The position numbers and the translations under genes are program-made. This document shows positions 559-46,221 of a stretch of DNA of 64,000 nt, one piece after another. The DNA comes from Planctomycetota bacterium. GTDB lineage: Bacteria > Planctomycetota > Phycisphaerae > Phycisphaerales > UBA1924. Position 1 is the first letter of the stretch; every line of letters begins with the position of its first letter. The notes beneath the pieces are model-generated. The model did no database searches. It saw only the letters and a list, made by a program, of their open reading frames with translations, and was not told the DNA's origin. The DNA lies in assembly GCA_039819165.1 (NCBI GenBank), contig JBCBSM010000001.1, forward strand, positions 124,001 through 188,000, written 5' to 3'.

Positions 559-2613
559 GTGGCACGAACGACGCGAGCCCCACGCACGCAGCCCATCCGC
601 GTCAGCATGACGCTGCACGTGGTGGGCGTGATCGTCGTGCTGTCGGTGGTCGTCTTCGCGATGGCGGTGTTCGGCGCTCGCCGGGCGGTGCAGCGGCTGT
701 CGGGCGAGGTGACCCACCAAGCCACCGAGCGGACCCGGGAGGGGCTCAACCGCTTCTTCGAGCCCGTGGGCGAGTCGCTGGGCATCGCCGCCCGCTGGAG
801 CCAGGCCGGCCGCATCGCGCCCGAAGCGCCCCTCGAGACCCTCGCGGTGCTCGGTCCCTTGGTCCGCCAGTCGCCGTCGATCTCGTCGGCCATCATCGCC
901 GACGAGGCCGGCCACGAGGTGCTCATCCTTGAGCTCGATGACGGCTGGCGGGTGCGGATCACCGAGCCGCCGCCGCCGGACGGCGCGGCCGAGTCGACCA
1001 ACACCATCGTGCTCCTCGATCGGCAGGGACGCGAGACGCGGCGATGGCGCGAACACGGCTACACGCCGCTGGATCGGGCGTGGTTCCGCCTGGCCATGGA
1101 GCGGGCCGACGAAGACGGCTTCGACGCCCAGGGCCGCGGCTCGCTCGCGTGGACGGACGTCTATACGTTCTTCACGACCGGGGACTATGGCATTACGGCC
1201 GCCATGCCGCATCTCACGGCGGATGGCTCGCGGCGGGTGATCGCCTTCGACGTGCTGCTGCGGGACATCTCCGAGTTCACCCGCGGCATCCACGTGGTCA
1301 ATGACGGCGTGGTCGTCGTGACGACGCCGCAGCGGCGGCTGATCGGGGCCCCGGGGCTATCCGAATTCGACGACGCCGAGCGGCTCCGCGGTGCGCTCGA
1401 GCGCCCGCTGGGGGACCTGGAAATCCCGCTGCTGGCCCGGGCCGACGAGACGCTGGGCGCGCTGTACTCCAGCGACGAGTTCCGGGTGCTCCGCTTCGGC
1501 GTGGGCGGCGAGCCGTGGTGGGGCGCTGCTGATCTCTACAGGCTCGGCGGCGAGCGTTCCTACTGGATCTGGGTGCTCGTGCCCGAGCGGGACATCCTGG
1601 GCGACCTGCACTGGCAGCGGGTGCTCATCCCGATCGCGGCGGGCATCGCGCTGTGCCTGGGCGTCCTGCGGGCGCTCCAACTCGCCGCGCGGTACAGCGG
1701 GCCCTTGCGACGGCTCGTCGATCAGAGCGATCGCATCAGCCGCATGGAGCTCGACGAGGGCGAGCCCATCACGTCCACGGTGGAGGAAGTCCAGCAGCTC
1801 GCCCGCGCCCAGGACCACATGCGGGCCTCGCTCCGCACGCTGGTCAAGCTCGAGCAGGACATGGCGCTCGCGCGGCGGATCCAGCAGGACACCTGGCCCG
1901 CGGCGATGCCCACCGATGACCGATTCGAGATCGACGCCTGGAGCGAGCCCGCCGACGAGACCGGCGGCGACGGCTACGACGTGGTGCCCGTCCGCATCAT
2001 CGATGGCGAGCGCGAGCCGTGCGACGACCATCCCGATCGTGTCTTCTGCATGCTCGCCGACGCGACGGGCCACGGCGTGGGGCCCGCGCTCTCGGTGGCG
2101 CAGGCCCGGTCGATGTTCCGCATGGCCGTCCGGGCGGGCATGCCGCTGGACGACATCGCGCGGCACGCCAACCAGCAGCTCGGTGCCGACCTCACCGAAG
2201 GGCGCTTCATCACGGCGTGGATGGCCGAGTTCGATCCGGCGACCGGGGAGCTCTCGATGGTTAGCGCCGGGCAGGCGCCGCTCTACCTGCTGCGGTCGGG
2301 CGGCGGCATCGAGCGATTCGGCGCCTCGGTGCCGCCGATGGGCGTGCTGCCCGACCTGCCCGACATGGAGCCCGTGGTGGTGCCGCTGGGGCCCGGCGAT
2401 GCCTTCGTCGTGTGCTCGGACGGCATCTACGAGGCCATGGACGAGGACCACCGCCAGCTCGGCGAGGACGCGGCCATCCGGGCGATCACCGAGGCGCAGC
2501 CGGGCGGGCTGGGGGCCATGCGGGCGGCGATCGCGGCAACCGTGGGCGGTTTCGCCGGTAGCGCTCCCGCGTCGGACGATCGCACCTGCCTGCTGATCCG
2601 GCGGGTTCGCTGA
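559..2613 (+). CDS. dCache-HAMP-SpoIIE membrane serine phosphatase (RsbU-like)
   Basis: A 684-residue sensor phosphatase. A basic N-terminus leads into a transmembrane helix (about residues 20-40). A periplasmic domain of about 300 residues follows, with dCache-type features (DRAWFRLA, then WTDVYTFFTTGDYGIT). A second helix (IPIAAGIALCLGVL), a HAMP linker and a C-terminal SpoIIE/PP2C domain complete it. Metal-binding motifs are visible: GGDGYD, LADATGHGVGPAL and SDGIYEAMD. The family dephosphorylates anti-sigma-factor antagonists or similar phosphoproteins in response to an extracytoplasmic signal. No antagonist or anti-sigma gene lies nearby, so the target is unknown. GTG 559 is preferred over ATG 607 because it supplies the positive residues before helix 1. 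Confidence 0.85.
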   Translation: MARTTRAPRTQPIRVSMTLHVVGVIVVLSVVVFAMAVFGARRAVQRLSGEVTHQATERTREGLNRFFEPVGESLGIAARWSQAGRIAPEAPLETLAVLGPLVRQSPSISSAIIADEAGHEVLILELDDGWRVRITEPPPPDGAAESTNTIVLLDRQGRETRRWREHGYTPLDRAWFRLAMERADEDGFDAQGRGSLAWTDVYTFFTTGDYGITAAMPHLTADGSRRVIAFDVLLRDISEFTRGIHVVNDGVVVVTTPQRRLIGAPGLSEFDDAERLRGALERPLGDLEIPLLARADETLGALYSSDEFRVLRFGVGGEPWWGAADLYRLGGERSYWIWVLVPERDILGDLHWQRVLIPIAAGIALCLGVLRALQLAARYSGPLRRLVDQSDRISRMELDEGEPITSTVEEVQQLARAQDHMRASLRTLVKLEQDMALARRIQQDTWPAAMPTDDRFEIDAWSEPADETGGDGYDVVPVRIIDGEREPCDDHPDRVFCMLADATGHGVGPALSVAQARSMFRMAVRAGMPLDDIARHANQQLGADLTEGRFITAWMAEFDPATGELSMVSAGQAPLYLLRSGGGIERFGASVPPMGVLPDLPDMEPVVVPLGPGDAFVVCSDGIYEAMDEDHRQLGEDAAIRAITEAQPGGLGAMRAAIAATVGGFAGSAPASDDRTCLLIRRVR

Positions 2614-2740
2614 CCTGGTGGTTTTGGCCGGATCGGGTGGCGTTGCGGCTGGATGCGCACACCGGCGTACCGTTGTGCGGGGAAACGCCCGCCGCCGTCG
2701 AGACGTGAACACGGTGACCAGCACGCCAAGGAGGCCATAG

Positions 2741-5700
2741 ATGCTGCTGACGGAGATTGCACGCTGGACCATCGCGGCGGGAGTCGCGACCACGCCCACC
2801 ATCGCGTTCCACGACACGCCGACCGAGACACCCCCGCCCGCGCCGCTGTGGGGTGCCGAGGCCCCGATCGATGCCCCGGTCGAATCCGCCCAGGCGATCC
2901 CGGAGCGGAGCCTGGCGATGGCGACCGCGGACGTCGCCAACGAGCCCGCGCGGGTGGGTGCCGAAGCCGCGACGATGGCCGAGAAGCTGGGCTGGTCCTT
3001 CGAGCAGAGCCGCGTGGGCTTCCCGCGGATGCCCTCGATCAGCCCGGATGGCTCGCTGATCGCCTTCAGCTGGGCGGGCGACCTCTGGGCCGTGCCCGCG
3101 GGCGGCGGGGTCGCGTCGCGGCTGACCTCGCACCCCGCCGACGAGCTGCGGTCGGCCTTTAGCCCCGATGGCAGCGTGCTGGCCTTCGAGTCGACCCGCG
3201 ACGGCAGCCGCAACCTGTACGCGATGCCCGTCAGCAGCCGCGACGGCCGCGTCTTCGGCGGCGAGATCCGCCGGCTCACGCTCGGCGATCGCGCGCTCAC
3301 GCTCTCGGGCTTCACCGCCGACGGCGAGGCGCTGCTGGCGCATGGCCGGCTCGATCCTGCGATGTACCGCGGAAGCTCGATGTACCGCGTGCCCCTGGCC
3401 GGTGGGCACATCCAGAAGATCACCGACGCCTACGGCACCTCGCCCACGATGTCGGCCGACGGCTCCCAGATCCTCTTCACCCGCCGGCGGGAGCTGACCG
3501 ATCGTCCGGCCTACCGCGGCCCGGGCGCGGGCGACCTCTGGTCGATGTCGACCGAGACCGGCCGCTTCCGCCAGCTCACCACCTTCGACGGCAACGACCA
3601 GCACGGCTTCGTGCTGCCCAACGGCTCGGTGCTGTACTCGTCCTCGCGGCACGGCCAGAACAACCTCTGGCTGCTGCCCAGCGGCCGCACCGATGCCGCG
3701 GGGCCCAGGCGGGTCACGAGCTTCGAGCCCACCGACGAGCAGCTGAGCATCGGCCACGGCGTCCGCGGCCTGGACGTCTCCTTCGATGGCTCCACCGCGG
3801 TGTTCTGCGTGTGGGACACGCTCTACACCCTCGACCTGACGCAGCGGACACCCACGCCCAGTGCCGTGTCCATCAACGCCTCGGTCGACACCGACAGCTT
3901 GGACTCGCGGACCATCGATCTTGACCGCCAGGTCAGCGAGGCCCGCCTGAGCCCCGACGGCAAGACGCTGGCGGTCATCGCCCGCGGCGAGGTCTTCGTC
4001 CGCAGCACCGAGGATGACCGCCCGACGCGGCGCGTGACCCACACCTCGGGCCGCGAGCGCGACCTGGCGTGGTCGCCCGACAACCGCGTGCTCTACTTCG
4101 CCTCCGATGAGAGCGGCCAGTTCGCCATCCACCAGGCCTCGGTCGCCCTGGCCCGCGAGGACCTCGAGCCGCAGGCCGTGGAGGAAGCCGAGGCGGAGGG
4201 CGCCGCCGAAGAGCAGGCCTCCGACGAGGCCACCGAGGACTCGGAATCGACCGACGAGAACGCCGAGGGCGACGACGGGCAGGCCGACGAGGCCGAAGCC
4301 GACGACGCCAAGGACGAGGACGAAGAAGACGCCGTCGACCACGGCGCCCGCTGGGCCGATGCGCTCCGCTTCGAGGTCACGCCCGTCGTGGCGAGCGACG
4401 CGATGGAGATTGCGCCGTTGCCCTCGCCCGACGGCCTGCGGCTGCTGTTCGTCCGCGAGCGGGGCGACGTGTGGCTGCACGACTTCGAGACCGGCGAGGA
4501 GCGCATGCTCTTCGAGAGCTGGAATCAGCCCGAGATCCAGTGGGCCTCGGACAGCCGCCACATCGTCTACGAGGTCGGCGACCTGGACTTCAACAGCGAC
4601 ATCTGGATCCTCGACACCGAGGACGGCGAGCCGGTCAACGTCACCCGCCACCCCGACATCGACACCAGCCCGCGGCTGAGCCACGACGGCAAGGTGCTGA
4701 CCTTCCTGAGCGACCGCGCGGGCGAGAACTGGTCCTACGACGTCTACGCGGTCATGCTCGATCGCGAGCTTGAGGGCCTGACCGAGTACGAGCTGGCGCA
4801 GTACTTCGAGGACGCCGCCAAGGCCGCCAAGAAGCTCGGCGCGATCGACACGCCGGACGTCTTCCTCGAGCGCGACGCCGATGAGGCCGCGGACGAGGAA
4901 GCCACCGACGAGGAAGAAGCCAACGACGACGGGGCGGACGATGAGGCCGAGCCGATGGAGTTCGACCTCGACGACGCCTGGAACCGCGTCCGCCGCGTCA
5001 CCCGCTTCAGCGGCGTGGGCAACCACCAGCTGACGCCCGGCGGCGAGCGGGTCGTCTTCAGCACCAGCATCGACGGCAGCACCTCGCTGTTCTCGGTGGA
5101 CTACCGGGGCCGCGAGCGCAAGACCGTGCAGAGCGGCGGCGTCTCGGGCGTCAGCGTGTCGACCGACGGCTCCAAGGTCGTGTACCTGCGCAGCGGGCAG
5201 CCCACCGTCGGCAAGCCCGTCGGCGGCAGCAGCGACACGATGCCCATCGACGCCACCATCCGCCTCGACGTCGAGGCCGAGCAGGCCCAGAAGTTCCGCG
5301 ATGCCGCCCGCATGCTGGGCCGCGACTTCTACCACCCGACCATGAAGGACCTGGACTGGGAGGGCCTCACCAACCGCTACCTCGATCTAGCCCGCCGCAC
5401 GCGGACGCCCAGCGAGTTCTACGAGGTCGCCAACATGCTCTTCGGCGAGCTCAACGGCTCGCACCTGGGCATCTGGGGTGGCGCCCAGGTCTACAGCCCG
5501 CCGAGCATCCGCACCGGCTACCTGGGCATCGACTACGTGCCCGTTGAGGGTGGCTACGAGGTGGTCTACGTCGTGCCCGAGGGGCCGGCGTCGCGGGACG
5601 CCAGCACGCTGCACGTCGGCGACGTGATCACCGCCGTCAACGGCACGCCGCTCGCGCCCGATGGCGGCATGCCGACCGTCGACCTGCGCGAGGCCATGGC

Positions 5701-34572: not shown

Positions 34573-34599
34573 TCAAGTAGGCTATAGGTCGTTCCGATG
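34573..34599 (+). promoter_or_regulatory. Sigma-28-type promoter before motA
   Basis: TCAAG, then 16 bases, then CCGATG resembles the flagellar sigma-28 consensus TAAAG-N15-CCGATAA. It falls in the longest gap of this part of the locus, in front of the stator genes, and would leave a leader of about 45 bases to ATG 34651. The spacer is one base long and the -35 has one mismatch. Confidence 0.45.
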
Positions 34600-34650
34600 G
34601 AGAGTCAGCGGCCGGAGCCGCGCGCGTGGTTCGCTATCGGAGCGTTAGAG

Positions 34651-35436
34651 ATGGATCTCGGAACGGTCGTGGGCCTCGTCGTCGCCGTGCTGGCCATCGG
34701 TATCGGCGTGGTCATCGGCGGCGGCGGCAACGTCGGCGCCCTGATCGATCCAACCTCGGTCTTCGTGGTCATCCTCGGCGCGACGGGCGCGTGCGTGATC
34801 GCGTTTCCGCTCTCCCGCATGACGGGCATCGTCGGCGTCGTCAAGAAGTCGTTCTTCAACGAGCTGGGCGACCCCGCCGAGACCATCACGGAGCTGGTTC
34901 GCTACGCCGAGGTCGCCCGCCGCGAGGGCATCCTGAGCCTCGAGAACCTCATGGGCGAGATGAAGGACCCCTTCATCGTCCGCGGCGTCAAGATGGCCGT
35001 CGACGGCACCGACCCCGAGCTCATCCGCGCGATTCTCGATACCGAGCTGGAGGCCCTTACCGAGCGGCACGGCTCGAACAAGGCCGTGCTCGACGCCTTC
35101 GCCAAGTACGCCCCGGCCTACGGCATGATCGGGACGCTGCTGGGCCTGATCTTCATGCTCCAGAGCATGGACGACCCCAGCAAGATCGGCCCGGGCATGG
35201 CCGTCGCGCTCATCACCACGCTGTACGGCGCGCTCATCGCCAACTTGTTCGCGTCGCCCATCGCCGACAAGCTCGCCGCCAAGGACGCCGAGGAGATGCT
35301 GGTGAAGACCATCATCGTGACCGGCGTGATGGCGATCCAGAGCGGCGACAACCCCCGCGTGGTCGAGAGCAAGCTGCTGACCTTCCTGCCGCCGTCCCAG
35401 CGCGACGCCTTCCTGGCCTCCCGTGAGGCCGCCTGA
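34651..35436 (+). CDS. motA: Flagellar motor stator protein MotA
   Basis: 261 residues with four transmembrane segments. MotA and MotB form the proton- or sodium-driven stator. Visible features are a first helix [23 protein letters not shown] and the [24 protein letters not shown] block. The cytoplasmic loop with charged [13 protein letters not shown] and [11 protein letters not shown] is followed by the helices [44 protein letters not shown]. The ATG at 34651 agrees with family N-termini; an upstream in-frame ATG lies within the putative promoter. The sequence does not settle ion type. Confidence 0.96.
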
Positions 35437-35439
35437 GCC

Positions 35440-36186
35440 ATGGCCAAGCGCAAGAAGCGCGAGCCCGCGGCCGTCCCCGAGTGGGTGGTGACCTACGGCG
35501 ACCTGATGTCGCTGCTGCTGTGCTTCTTCATCCTGCTGGCGGCCTTCAGCGAGCTCAAGCAGGAGCGCGACTACCAGGACGTGGTCCGCAGCATCCAGGA
35601 GGCCTTCGGCTACCAGGGCGGCGTGGGCAAGACCCGCGTCGAGGACGTCCCCTTCGCCACCACGCTGAGCATCGACGAGGACAACTCCGAGCGCTCGCAG
35701 CAGCCCTTCATCGAGGCCGAGACCACGCAGGATTCGATCACGGGCCGCCAGGAGAGCACCAACTCGATCCACGAGGGCAGCCGCTTCATCGTGGGTGCCA
35801 GCCTGCCCTTCGAGGCGGGCTCCTCCGAGCTCACCGCCCGCGTGCAGCGGATGCTCCGCGAGGAGATCGGCCCCGAGCTGCGGGGCCACCGCGTGAAGAT
35901 CGAGATCCGCGGCCACGCCTGGGGCAGCGAGGATCGGATATCGGGCCTGGACTTCTACGACCTGTCCTACCAGCGGGCCAAGGCCGTCATGGACTACCTC
36001 GCCACCGAGGTCGGCATCGATCCCAAGCTCATGGAGCTCGAGGCGCAGGCCGATGCCGAACCCGTGGTGGCGTCCCGCGGCCCGGGCGGCGGCGCCGCTT
36101 CGAATCGGCGGGTGCAGGTGGTCCGCACCGAGATCACGCCCGAGGAGACCCACCCCGATCCAAACTGGACCGGCCGGGGTCCATAA
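35440..36186 (+). CDS. motB: Flagellar motor stator protein MotB
   Basis: 248 residues. One N-terminal helix contains the ion-binding Asp ([27 protein letters not shown]). The periplasmic OmpA-like peptidoglycan-binding domain follows: [62 protein letters not shown] and ASNRRVQVV. The region between is a Glu/Asp/Ser-rich linker and plug. It starts 3 bp after motA. Confidence 0.95.
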
Positions 36187-36222: not shown

Positions 36223-36759
36223 ATGGCCGACGAGACCAAAGAATCCGATGCGCCCGCGAAGGAGAAGCCCGCGAAGAAGGGCGGACTTTCTGCCAAGGTG
36301 CTGGCGATCATCGTCGCGGTCATGGCCGTCGAGGGCGTGGGCATCTTCCTGTTCATGACCATGATGAGCGGCACGCCCCAGGACGCCGAGGCCACCGAAC
36401 TGGTCAACGACGAGAACGACCCCGAGGCCCTCGTCGAGGTGCTGCTCACCGACGAGCAGTTCCAGAACATGACCAACAACCAGGTCTGGATCTGGGAGGC
36501 CGAGCTGTACCTCAAGGTCCGCCGCAAGAACCTCGAGTACGTCGAGCGAGAGCTCGAGCAGCGGCAGGCCGAGATCCGCGAGGGCGTGACGCAAATCTTC
36601 CGCCGCCTCAGCCCCACCGAGCTGAGCGAGGCCGACTTCCGCACCGGCTCAAGGCAGCTGACGGCTCTCATCAACGACGTGTTTGGCACCGATGCCGACG
36701 GCCTGCCCCGCGTCGATCGCCTGGTGATCGCCAAGCTCCGCGGCTTCCCCCGCAACTAG
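36223..36759 (+). CDS. fliL: Flagellar basal-body protein FliL
   Basis: 178 residues. A lysine-rich cytoplasmic N-terminus ([16 protein letters not shown]) leads into one membrane helix ([22 protein letters not shown]). A periplasmic FliL domain with [42 protein letters not shown] follows, ending near [15 protein letters not shown]. FliL forms rings around stators and modulates torque. The next gene is fliN 155 bp away; the fliM gene that normally follows fliL is absent. Confidence 0.9.
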
Positions 36760-36914
36760 CCGGCGGCGGGCCCAGATCCGAATCGAGCGCAGTTGCTGCG
36801 CAGCGATGCAAAAGCTGCGGCTGCGCGCGATGCGATTCCGATGTAGCCCGGTGCCGGCGGAGCCCGGCGTCGCCGTGCGCCCGCGCGCGGTCCGGCCACA
36901 CACGCGAGCGCAGG

Positions 36915-37532
36915 ATGCCCGAAGACCCCAGCGACATCCCGAATGAGACGCCCAGCGGGGCCGAAGGCGACGCCGCACCGGAGTCCACGCCCGCCGAGCC
37001 GTCGCCCGAGCCTGCCGGTGGGGCGGACGCGGCCGATGACCAGGCCGAGGCGCTCGAGGCCGCACGCGAGGCGGTGCAGGACATCCAGGCGGAGGCGGAT
37101 GCCGCGGCGTCGTCTGGCGCCACGCCAGAGTCCGCCGAACCCGGGGGCAAGGAGGCGATCGGCCAGAGCGAGATCGATGCGCTCCTGGCGGCGGCGGGCC
37201 AGCAACAACCCGGCGGCGAAGGCCTCGAACTGCCGAGCTTCGAGCGATCCGCGAGTGGTGGCGACGCGGGCGGCATCGACATGCTCGCCGACGTGCAGCT
37301 GAGCGTCCGCATCGAGCTGGGCCGCACGCGGATGCTCGTCGAAGACGTGCTCAAGCTCAACGACGGCGCAGTGGTCGAGCTCGACAAGCTCGCCGGCGAT
37401 CCGGTGGACGTCTACGTTAACGATCGCCTGGTGGCACGGGGCGAGGTGCTGGTGCTCAACGACAACTTCTGCGTCCGCGTCAGCGAGATCGTGGACCACA
37501 TCGGCGAGGAAGCCGCGGCAGAGAAGGCCTAG
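36915..37532 (+). CDS. fliN: Flagellar motor switch protein FliN with EIDALL peptide
   Basis: 205 residues. The C-terminal SpoA/FliN domain is clear (residues 124-195): [68 protein letters not shown]. The first 120 residues are Glu/Ala/Pro-rich and disordered. At 83-95 they contain [13 protein letters not shown], close to the N-terminal CheY-binding peptide of FliM and FliY (SQ-x-EIDALL). No CheC-like phosphatase domain is present, so this is FliN with a FliM/FliY-type peptide rather than full FliY. The ATG at 36915 fits the family. An upstream open frame belongs to other genes. Confidence 0.93.
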
Positions 37533-43714: not shown

Positions 43715-45292
43715 ATGAGCATCCGCACGTACCGTGCCCGGTCGATGGCCGACGCCATCGATGCCGTGCAGCGCGACATGGGCCGCGACGCGGTCATCCT
43801 GCATACCCGCAACTACCGAGTTGGTGGTCTGTTCGGAATCGGCGGCCGACCAGTGGTCGAGGTTACCGCGTCGCCGGCGTCAGCGGTCCGCACTCGGCAG
43901 AAGAGCCGTGCATCGCGATCCGCGCCGGCCACGCCGCGGCCCGCTGCCGCAAGCACGCCCAAGCCCCAATCCAGACCCGGCCCCGCGGCCGACCCGCTCT
44001 CGCCGGTCCGCCGCCGCGAGCTGCTCGAGCGCTACACCGAGCTCGCGGCCGCCCGCCCCAAGCCTGCGCCCGGCGCCGCCCGTTCCGTTGAGCCCCGGGC
44101 CACCGACCAGCGAGTCGCAGAGCGACCCCGGACCAACCCGCGTCCGCGCCGCGACGAGCCTGCCGAGTCCCAGGGCCGCGCCGCCGGCGAGACGCTGCGC
44201 GTCCACCGGTCCGCCGCCGATGCGCCGGATGCCCGGGGGGTGGCCGCGGTGGCTCCGGCCGCGCCGCCGGCCGCGATCGAGCACGAGCTCAGGACGCTCC
44301 GCCGGATGGTCGGCCGCGTGCTGCGGACCCAGAGCGGCGGCCTGCCGAGCGGGCTGCCCGAGCCGCTTGCGGCCGCGTACGCGCAGCTGCTCGATGCCGA
44401 TGTCGCCCAGGATCTGGCCGACGCGATCATCGACGGCGTCCGCGAGTCGCTCTCCCGCGAGGAACTGCACCAGCCCGACGTCGTTCGCGGGGCCGTGCTA
44501 GGCCAAACCGCCGCGGCGATCCCGATCGCCCGTGCGGAGTCCGCCAGGCGTCCCGAGGACGGGCGCCCCCGCACGATCGCGCTCGTCGGGCCGACCGGCG
44601 TGGGCAAGACCACGACGATCGCCAAGCTCGCCGCCGCCCACAAGCTCCGGCGTGGCCGTCGCGTCGGCCTGATCACGACCGACACGTTCCGGATCGCGGC
44701 CGTCGAGCAGCTGCGGACGTACGCCGGCATCATCAGCGTGCCGCTGCGGGTCGTCATGTCGCCGGCGGAGATGGCGTCGGCCTGCCGCAGCTTCGCGTCC
44801 TGCGATCTGGTGCTGATCGATACCGCCGGCCGATCCCCCCGCGACGGCCAGCGGCTCGACGAACTCGCGGCACACCTCGAGGCCGCCGATCCGCACGAGA
44901 CCCACCTGGTGCTGTCGGCCACTTCGGGGGCCGCGACGCTGCGGGATGGCGCGCGGGGATTCGCCATCGCCGAGCCCAACCGCGTCATCCTCACCAAGCT
45001 GGACGAGGCTGCGTCGCTCGGTTCGGCGCTCTCGGCGCTGCACGGCCTCGGGCTCCCGGTGAGCTACGTGACCACCGGCCAGGAGGTGCCCGACCACATC
45101 GAGCGCGCCCGGGCCGACCGCCTCGCCCGCATGGTGCTGCGGAGTGCTGCGGGAAGCCACTCGGCCGAAGGGGCCGATGGCGAACACAGCACAGCAACAC
45201 TCTCCAAGCCGCAGCTCCGTGCCGGCGAGCGCATGAGTGTGGCGGGGCAGTCGACGGCACCGAACGTCGTCGCGGCGGGCGCGACGCCGTGA
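43715..45292 (+). CDS. flhF: SRP-type GTPase FlhF
   Basis: 525 residues. FlhF positions the flagellum and controls number together with FlhG. The N-terminal B domain begins RTYRARSMADAIDAVQRDMGRDAVILHTR. A Pro/Ala/Arg-rich linker (70-180) precedes the NG domain. G1 is GPTGVGKTTTIAKLAA, G2 TTDTFRIAAVEQLRTYAGI, G3 DTAGRSPRD, and the specificity motif is LTKLDEAASLGSALS. A tail of about 50 residues after the GTPase is unconserved. The GTG start of flhG overlaps its stop. Confidence 0.95.
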   Translation: MSIRTYRARSMADAIDAVQRDMGRDAVILHTRNYRVGGLFGIGGRPVVEVTASPASAVRTRQKSRASRSAPATPRPAAASTPKPQSRPGPAADPLSPVRRRELLERYTELAAARPKPAPGAARSVEPRATDQRVAERPRTNPRPRRDEPAESQGRAAGETLRVHRSAADAPDARGVAAVAPAAPPAAIEHELRTLRRMVGRVLRTQSGGLPSGLPEPLAAAYAQLLDADVAQDLADAIIDGVRESLSREELHQPDVVRGAVLGQTAAAIPIARAESARRPEDGRPRTIALVGPTGVGKTTTIAKLAAAHKLRRGRRVGLITTDTFRIAAVEQLRTYAGIISVPLRVVMSPAEMASACRSFASCDLVLIDTAGRSPRDGQRLDELAAHLEAADPHETHLVLSATSGAATLRDGARGFAIAEPNRVILTKLDEAASLGSALSALHGLGLPVSYVTTGQEVPDHIERARADRLARMVLRSAAGSHSAEGADGEHSTATLSKPQLRAGERMSVAGQSTAPNVVAAGATP

Positions 45293-46221
45293 CCCGGGCC
45301 ACGCATGACCAAGCCTCGGCGCTGCGGACGCTCGCGTCCGCACGGATCGCCGAGCCGTCCGCCCCTATGGCGTCGCCCCGCGCGCCGGTGATCGCAATCG
45401 CGTCGGGCAAGGGAGGCGTCGGCAAGACCACGATCGGCGTCAATCTCGCGATCGCGCTGTCGGGCCAGGGCGCCCGCGTTGCGCTGCTCGATGCCGATCT
45501 CGGCCTGGCCAACGCCGACCTCGCGTGCGGACTGTGCCCCACGGCGCGGCTGGGCGAGGCGATCGAGGTCGTTGCCCGCGGCAATCGCGTGACTCCCGAA
45601 CTCGTGCAGCGGCTCACGCTGCCGGGGCCCCGCGGCATCGCGGTGGTGCCGGGTGTCGTCGGGCCCGTACACGGCGCGGGCATGCACGACGTCCGTCGCG
45701 CCGTGGCCGACACCACCGAACTGCTGGCGCGTTCTTCCGAGGTCGTGGTCGTGGACCACGGCGCCGGCCTCCACGGCGCAATCCGCCGCGCGCTGGCCGA
45801 GGCAACGCTGCCCATCGTCGTCGCGACGCCCGATCCGCCCGCGATCGCCGACGCCTACGCCCTCATCAAGGCGACGATGGCCGCGGCCGGCTCGATGGAC
45901 ATTGCCAAGCGGACCCCGTACATCCTGGTGAATCGCGCCCGCGATGCGCGGGACGCCGGCCGCGTACACGCCCGGCTCGCCGACGTCGCCGCCCGCTTCC
46001 TGGGCATCGGGCTGCCCTATCTGGGGTGGCTGCCGGACGACCCCGCAGCCGAACGGGCGACCCGCGCGCGACGTCCCGTATGCGTCGCCGCCCGGCGTTC
46101 GAGGGTCGCCCGGCGATTCCGCAGGCTCGCGCATCGCGTCCGCGAAGAACTAACACCGTCCTATCAGGATGGTGGCTTCCGCTTGGCACGCGTCGTGCGT
46201 CGTGGCGGTCGGCCTGCCTGA
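45289..46221 (+). CDS. flhG: MinD-like ATPase FlhG
   Basis: 310 residues. A ParA/MinD-type ATPase that limits flagellar number by acting on FlhF. Deviant Walker A: ASGKGGVGKTTIGVNLA near residue 40; switch I/Walker A' LLDADLGLANADL; VVVVDHGAGLHGA as Walker B. The first 30 residues are an extension. The C-terminus is very basic (RRSRVARRFRRLAHRVREEL), as expected for an amphipathic membrane-targeting helix. In many flagellar operons che genes follow; here a small membrane gene does. Confidence 0.93.
   Translation: MTRATHDQASALRTLASARIAEPSAPMASPRAPVIAIASGKGGVGKTTIGVNLAIALSGQGARVALLDADLGLANADLACGLCPTARLGEAIEVVARGNRVTPELVQRLTLPGPRGIAVVPGVVGPVHGAGMHDVRRAVADTTELLARSSEVVVVDHGAGLHGAIRRALAEATLPIVVATPDPPAIADAYALIKATMAAAGSMDIAKRTPYILVNRARDARDAGRVHARLADVAARFLGIGLPYLGWLPDDPAAERATRARRPVCVAARRSRVARRFRRLAHRVREELTPSYQDGGFRLARVVRRGGRPA

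Follow-up and report, generated by a model that had tools for sequence, protein, structure and literature searches.

The flagellar motor is a model of ultrasensitive switching, in which the number and place of bound CheY are central. The N-terminal peptide of the switch protein FliM, LSQXEIDALL, is described as the binding site of phosphorylated CheY (CheY-P; PMC6700473), and it is reported to fit the groove of the CheY helices alpha4 and alpha5 (PMC9126983). FliN, for which a C-ring stoichiometry of FliM1/FliN3 is given, binds CheY-P through its FliN domain, and its tail, which is dispensable for FliN function, seems to control the affinity for CheY-P (PMC6700473). The N-termini of FliM and FliN(Y) have been described as high-affinity capture sites ahead of a second binding step (PMC9126983). 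In monotrichous bacteria, the ATPase FlhG is reported to act on the N-terminus of FliM, binding FliM and not FliN, and in B. subtilis it acts on FliY (PMC12826062). Full or degenerate EIDAL motifs have been noted sporadically in FliN and FliY (PMC6946799), and a single FliM-type motif on FliN is therefore not new in kind. The tree of that study covers 12 bacteria of the spirochetes, Firmicutes, Epsilon- and Gammaproteobacteria, and the part of its text available to us makes no mention of tandem copies. A literature search, with subscription papers mostly outside its reach, found no report of tandem FliM-type copies on FliN.

The locus described here lies in a window of 64,000 nucleotides (the whole stretch of DNA analysed) on contig C1; the assembly, of 3.14 Mb in 35 contigs, is listed as 100% complete. 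Its FliN has the core motif of the FliM N-terminal peptide (LSQxEIDALL), but carries it inside the tail, some 27 residues ahead of the SPOA domain, whereas the peptide of FliM stands at the protein start and is accompanied by the FliM middle domain. Where FliM has a single peptide, FliN proteins of the window's relatives have one to five copies. FliY of the B. subtilis type is similar in combining a FliN-type domain and an EIDAL motif in one chain (PMC12826062); however, the window FliN and that of locus L117, an array-bearing relative, lack the CheC-like domain, and Pfam gives FliMN_C alone. FliNs with sporadic EIDAL motifs (PMC6946799) are alike in having the motif in FliN itself. As in the two-FliN C rings of Campylobacter, Helicobacter and Leptospira, which combine FliN and FliY (PMC6946799), the window genome encodes two FliN-type proteins, but the second is a bare FliMN_C domain of 88 residues, located on another contig among neighbours that do not read as flagellar. 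From sequence comparison, we lean towards reading the window peptide as a true FliM-type docking motif on the FliN tail, additional to that of FliM, and as a scattered case of a feature often seen in the other orders of its class.

The fliL–fliN slot and the location of fliM

In some other bacteria, the slot between fliL and fliN holds fliM. The original prediction placed fliL, a short gap and fliN in succession in the window, and the coordinates in Table 1 agree with it; the name fliL is weakly supported, the Pfam FliL model matching the open reading frame at E 0.063, under its cut-off. The absence of fliM from the window was likewise confirmed. At E ≤ 0.001, the sole FliM match of the genome (PF02154, E 5e-64) lies on contig C2, at C2:237439-238008. 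This FliM is full-length (TIGR01397, E 4.2e-86, over cut-off) and carries its own peptide, DQNEVDALLAAVG (EVDALL); the start of the protein, with a start codon picked by eye, reads MDILDQNEVDALLAAVGSG. Of the suggestion that fliM had been relocated or lost, relocation therefore stands and loss does not, while the accompanying idea that CheY docking had moved onto FliN fails, the peptide being present on both proteins. That of FliN is an addition to that of FliM, not a substitute.

The genes downstream of fliM are ones that we take to be nusA and infB. By a crude 36-residue match, 36 of 80 genomes have a NusA-like start no more than about 1.5 kb from FliM, and fliM thus adjoins a transcription/translation operon in part of the order. 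FliM itself is present in 123 of the order's 151 genomes. The three FliMN_C matches of the window genome are FliM, the long FliN and the short FliN, the last being an 88-residue bare domain matched at C2:247810-248016. Its neighbours do not read as flagellar; those beside it are presumably fabF and acpP. Exactly three FliMN_C matches were counted by hand in 116 of the 125 genomes of the order that have the domain, the identity of all three being known for the window genome. Further along the window, the flhG-like gene probably encodes FlhG, judging from its position between flhF and a gene for a FliA-type sigma factor.

Table 1. Locations of the flagellar and chemotaxis features discussed in the text; plain coordinates are positions in the window.
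Feature	Location	Strand	Basis
motA-type stator gene	34597..35436	+	MotP/PomA/MotA matches, best E 2.6e-76, under the models' cut-offs
motB-type stator gene	35440..36186	+	MotB-family matches, best E 5.9e-30, under cut-off
fliL-like gene	36223..36759	+	ORF of 178 aa; name mainly from position
fliL–fliN gap, 155 bp	36760..36914	+	Read from sequence
fliN, long-tailed, 205 aa	36915..37532	+	Pfam and NCBIfam matches
First FliN tail helix of the model, residues 38-66	37026..37112	+	AlphaFold2 (poor model overall) and alignment
FliM-type peptide, 13 residues, FliN residues 83-95	37161..37199	+	Motif, profile score; model helix 84-95
LELPSF element, FliN residues 104-109	37224..37241	+	Pattern match
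FliMN_C (SPOA) domain, FliN residues 123-193	37281..37493	+	Pfam E 4.1e-23
flhF	43715..45292	+	TIGR03499, over cut-off
flhG-like MinD-type ATPase gene	45289..46221	+	MinD-type matches, under cut-off
CheY gene	L306, about 1495-1866		NCBIfam NF007901 E 1.3e-33, best match but under cut-off
Second FliN, bare, 88 aa	L330, 15772-16038 (G000 contig C2)	-	FliMN_C match

Identity and predicted structure of the window FliN

The window protein has the FliMN_C domain of FliN and passes the cut-off of the NCBIfam fliN model TIGR02480. Pfam at E ≤ 1 gives FliMN_C alone: the FliM middle (CheC-like) domain is lacking, as is the FliM domain PF02154, which is present in the separate FliM. Nor does a CheC-like domain of the FliY kind lie between the peptide and the SPOA domain, the tail of about 120 residues being without a Pfam match; the FliY model PRK08119 matches partially, over model positions 252-371 of 376, and under its cut-off. 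A 205-residue FliN with a long tail and an EIDALL-type peptide at residues 83-95, as first described from the DNA alone, is thus borne out, and the sequence QSEIDALL conforms to the pattern Q-x-[DE]-[IV]-D-x-L-L.

AlphaFold2, run with a seven-row alignment, gave a model with a mean pLDDT of 51, in which much of the FliN domain also falls below 50. Two tail helices are predicted, at residues 38-66 and 84-95, the latter coinciding with the peptide. A 21-residue stretch within the former resembles genus relatives in the alignment. Since the model is poor throughout, it neither supports nor contradicts disorder of the tail. An LPxF-type element, LELPSF in the window, closely precedes the FliN domain in FliN tails generally; the pattern [LMIF]P[DESANTVQP][FLIY] occurs within the last 45 tail residues of 122/193 FliNs (6.0 expected by shuffling).

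Score, conservation and origin of the window peptide

A profile was built from 48 distinct FliM peptides (76 read). The window FliN peptide scores 36.6 bits against it, the top value among 153 FliN tails, and ranks second in the class-wide set of 193 tails, after locus L333 (39.7 bits); the median for real FliM peptides is 44.0 bits. Fifteen of the 153 tails score at P ≤ 0.01, where 1.5 would be expected. The strict motif [DE][IV]D.LL occurs seven times, in six of the 153 tails, against a shuffle mean of 0.017 and a maximum of 1 in 300 shuffles, which rules out pure chance for this class of peptide. Starts of long-tailed FliNs were set by rule, as the first M after which R, C and H (in the class-wide set, also W) seldom occur, which makes the tail lengths approximate; for 14 of 167 distinct tails no start fitted the rule, and leaving these out gives the 153.

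The peptide is missing from the FliN of all six other members of the genus (seven genomes in the genus set). At the corresponding site, the five alignable relatives hold a loosely similar helix (VVEAALQAAG, VVQAALKAA, IMAAFAEAE), the sixth having entered the alignment without a tail. Conservation thus fails within the genus (0/6) and, with FliM keeping a peptide of its own, both observations named beforehand as counting against the original prediction were made in the narrow sense, while the wider idea of docking on FliN gains from the tails with one to five copies in other orders. The sequences gave no hint that DNA had recently been copied from the beginning of fliM, with 29 of 39 bases identical where 28.9 would be expected from synonymous codons.

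In a MAFFT alignment of 22 of the 193 tails, which is unsafe given the low complexity of FliN tails, the window peptide lies opposite a GRPFD-type helix of the array-bearing FliNs, an element present in 37/193 FliNs, and not opposite their repeats. Because of this placement, homology of the window peptide with the array repeats is disfavoured, and together with the nested position of the window FliN in the tree (see below) it speaks for a peptide that arose locally from a helix already in place. As the motif also stands where genus relatives have another short helix, we tentatively conclude that it more likely arose at such a helix in the window genus than survived from an array.

FliM-type motifs in FliN tails of the order and class

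Outside the window's order, FliN tails of the class hold between one and five FliM motifs, mostly of the form SQxDIDA(L/A)(L/M). Under the pattern Q.[DESAN][IVLM][DN].[LMIA][LMIFAV], 96 copies were found in 49/193 FliNs, against a mean of 1.1 copies and a maximum of 4 in 200 shuffles. Sampling was confined to one class and reached beyond the window's order through matches of the L117 FliN and through named loci. Of the 125 genomes of the order that have the domain, 122 are represented in the order set of 123 FliNs, which is completed by one genus member; G034, G130 and G148 have a FliMN_C match and are absent from it, no long FliN having been listed for them. Seven of these 123 carry the motif (0.57 expected by shuffling) and 116 do not. 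Among the seven, only those of the window, G079 and G091 resemble FliM closely, the other four being degenerate; G079 and G091, both of one other genus, carry MADQNDIDDLLAES and MSDQNDVDDLLAQS.

The remaining sets were both drawn from a search of the L117 FliN against 397 genomes of the class, and lean towards L117. A set of 40, hand-picked to cover families from among the best-scoring L117 matches listed, had the motif in 15 FliNs (0.20 expected by shuffling), the families sampled being those with strong matches among the matches listed. Five of its genomes (G156, G220, G399, G417 and G437) are those of the named loci L158, L100, L177, L162 and L113, and three of these five were carriers; with genomes already seen as named loci removed, the count is 12/35. 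In the set of 30 nearest to L117, which includes L117's own genome (G397), the motif occurs in 30/30 when the last 190 residues are read and in 27/30 after trimming to the start, the start rule having removed motifs from three loci in the 193-tail count. By family, carriers are most frequent in f19 (23/27), f17 (7/8), f21 (2/2), f28 (1/1) and f8 (5/10), followed by f11 and f22 (2/6 each), f5 (1/7) and f6 (3/41). The window's own family, f1, has three in 47, and none were found in f2 (21 FliNs), f3 (1), f4 (6), f9, f12, f13, f14 or f25 (2 each).

The FliN of L117 comprises 266 residues and contains three copies, VSQADIDALM, FSQADIDALM and VSQDDIDALI; the open reading frame before its gene looks fliL-like by eye. 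AlphaFold2 placed short helices at the copies (residues 20-27, 56-64 and 88-97) in a poor model with a mean pLDDT of 52. The highest copy number, five, was found in G439. The FliN tail of L387 (f22) contains about four degenerate repeats like VSADEVEAAMQEML, which are perhaps decayed or altered docking repeats. In a midpoint-rooted tree of the FliN core, FliP and FliQ, into which 72 of 81 loci (80 named and the window) entered, the strong carriers L113, L117, L158, L173 and L177 share one clade of nine loci with the weaker carriers L100 and L162 and the motif-free L150 and L178. L142 and L175 form a pair outside this clade, and the window FliN lies deep among motif-free FliNs.

Chemotaxis genes and their relation to the peptides

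A CheY is encoded in the same genome as the window FliN; the PDB chains that match it best bear the name chemotaxis protein CheY, and it keeps the sequences DWNMPNMDGL and YVVKPFT. The genome also encodes CheX (PF13690, E 2.5e-18, over cut-off). The genes cheX, cheY and then fapA lie together at L306, about 864-3336 (G000 contig C1 near 1326000-1328500). With a single Pfam model for each and a threshold of E ≤ 0.001, searches found no CheA dimer domain, CheW or methyl-accepting chemotaxis protein (MCP) in the window genome, so a canonical pathway of CheA, CheW and MCP was not recovered there. The FliM peptide was examined in 80 genomes out of the 123 in the order that have FliM, among them all 19 members of the window's family without a CheA match. 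The peptide is kept in 38/42 genomes without a CheA match, against 37/38 with CheA, and in 31/35 without CheA and CheW matches. It therefore seems useful without CheA, either with CheY phosphorylated otherwise or with FlhG as the partner. CheA is present in 38/49 carriers of the FliN motif and 80/143 non-carriers, a weak link (Fisher P 0.010, kinship ignored; G151 left out), and no such link was found inside the order (P 0.70, with G151 counted as without CheA).

Possible roles of the FliN peptides

If the window peptide is a docking motif, each FliN motif would fold as a short helix and, like the FliM peptide, bind in the alpha4/alpha5 groove of CheY. With about three FliN per FliM, such motifs would multiply the sites for docking at the C-ring base, and the additional capture sites on the FliN tails could raise the local CheY concentration beside the switch. 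We infer the docking of CheY or FlhG on FliN peptides from these comparisons, and likewise CheY binding, its consequences for switching, the ratio of FliN to FliM in these species and the phosphorylation of CheY without a detected CheA. Against this docking role stand the missing peptide in the genus relatives of the window species, the 116/123 FliNs of the order without a motif, the failure to detect CheA, CheW or MCP in the window genome, the weakness of the link between CheA and the motif, and the description of the FliN tail as dispensable (PMC6700473). For the class, it is possible, and we propose it more tentatively, that the switch of several Phycisphaerae families is a multivalent receiver, in which FliN arrays of up to five peptides present several-fold more CheY sites than FliM does, and that some members, such as the window species, which have the peptides and CheY and no detected CheA, use another kinase or a small phosphodonor.

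The slot between fliL and fliN, empty of fliM, could suggest that fliM was lost and that FliN took over CheY docking, but the full-length, peptide-bearing FliM encoded on contig C2 effectively rules this out. A doubtful but more serious alternative is that the EIDALL peptides of FliM and FliN serve FlhG, the ATPase of flagellar number and assembly, and not CheY. FlhG would help load FliM/FliN onto FliG via these peptides, which would then persist without chemotaxis; indeed, the FliM peptide is kept in 38/42 genomes without a CheA match, more than a purely chemotactic role predicts, flhF and an flhG-like gene lie within the window, and FlhG acts on the FliM N-terminus and on FliY in the species studied (PMC12826062). 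The same source, however, has FlhG binding FliM but not FliN in monotrichous species, the window genome retains CheY and CheX, and it is not clear why an assembly clamp would need arrays of as many as five copies.

Two further explanations concern the origin of the window peptide. For the window species only, it might be there by neutral coincidence, a helix rich in Ala, Glu and Asp having drifted into EIDALL without a partner. We regard this as unlikely: the similar helix at the aligned site in five genus relatives, the missing peptide in 6/6 other genus members, the lack of a CheA match and the absence of any sign of DNA copying from fliM (29/39 bases against 28.9 expected) are all as it would predict, but a 13-residue match to the FliM peptide that tops 153 FliN tails is not, nor are seven strict motifs in those tails against 0.017 by shuffling, and the arrays elsewhere are left unexplained. 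Survival from an array in the class ancestor, with the window species keeping the last copy and most of the order losing it, is improbable. Arrays or single motifs in f8, f11, f17, f19, f21, f22 and f28 of other orders are in keeping with such an ancestor; yet the window FliN is nested among motif-free FliNs, so that many losses would be needed, and MAFFT sets its peptide at the position of the GRPFD-type helix and not at the repeats.

If the FliN peptides do dock CheY, a multivalent FliN receiver would be a different way of setting the gain and sensitivity of the switch, and natural FliNs with one, two, three and five extra peptides would provide a ready series for relating the number of docking sites to gain. 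Flagellates that keep the FliM peptide and have no detected CheA, such as the window species with its CheY and CheX, raise the question of how the peptide is used without the usual kinase. In family f2, the genomes G008, G023, G028 and G037 have CheW matches and no FliM or FliN matches, and CheA is matched too in G023, G028 and G037, which suggests chemosensory systems in non-flagellated members of that family.
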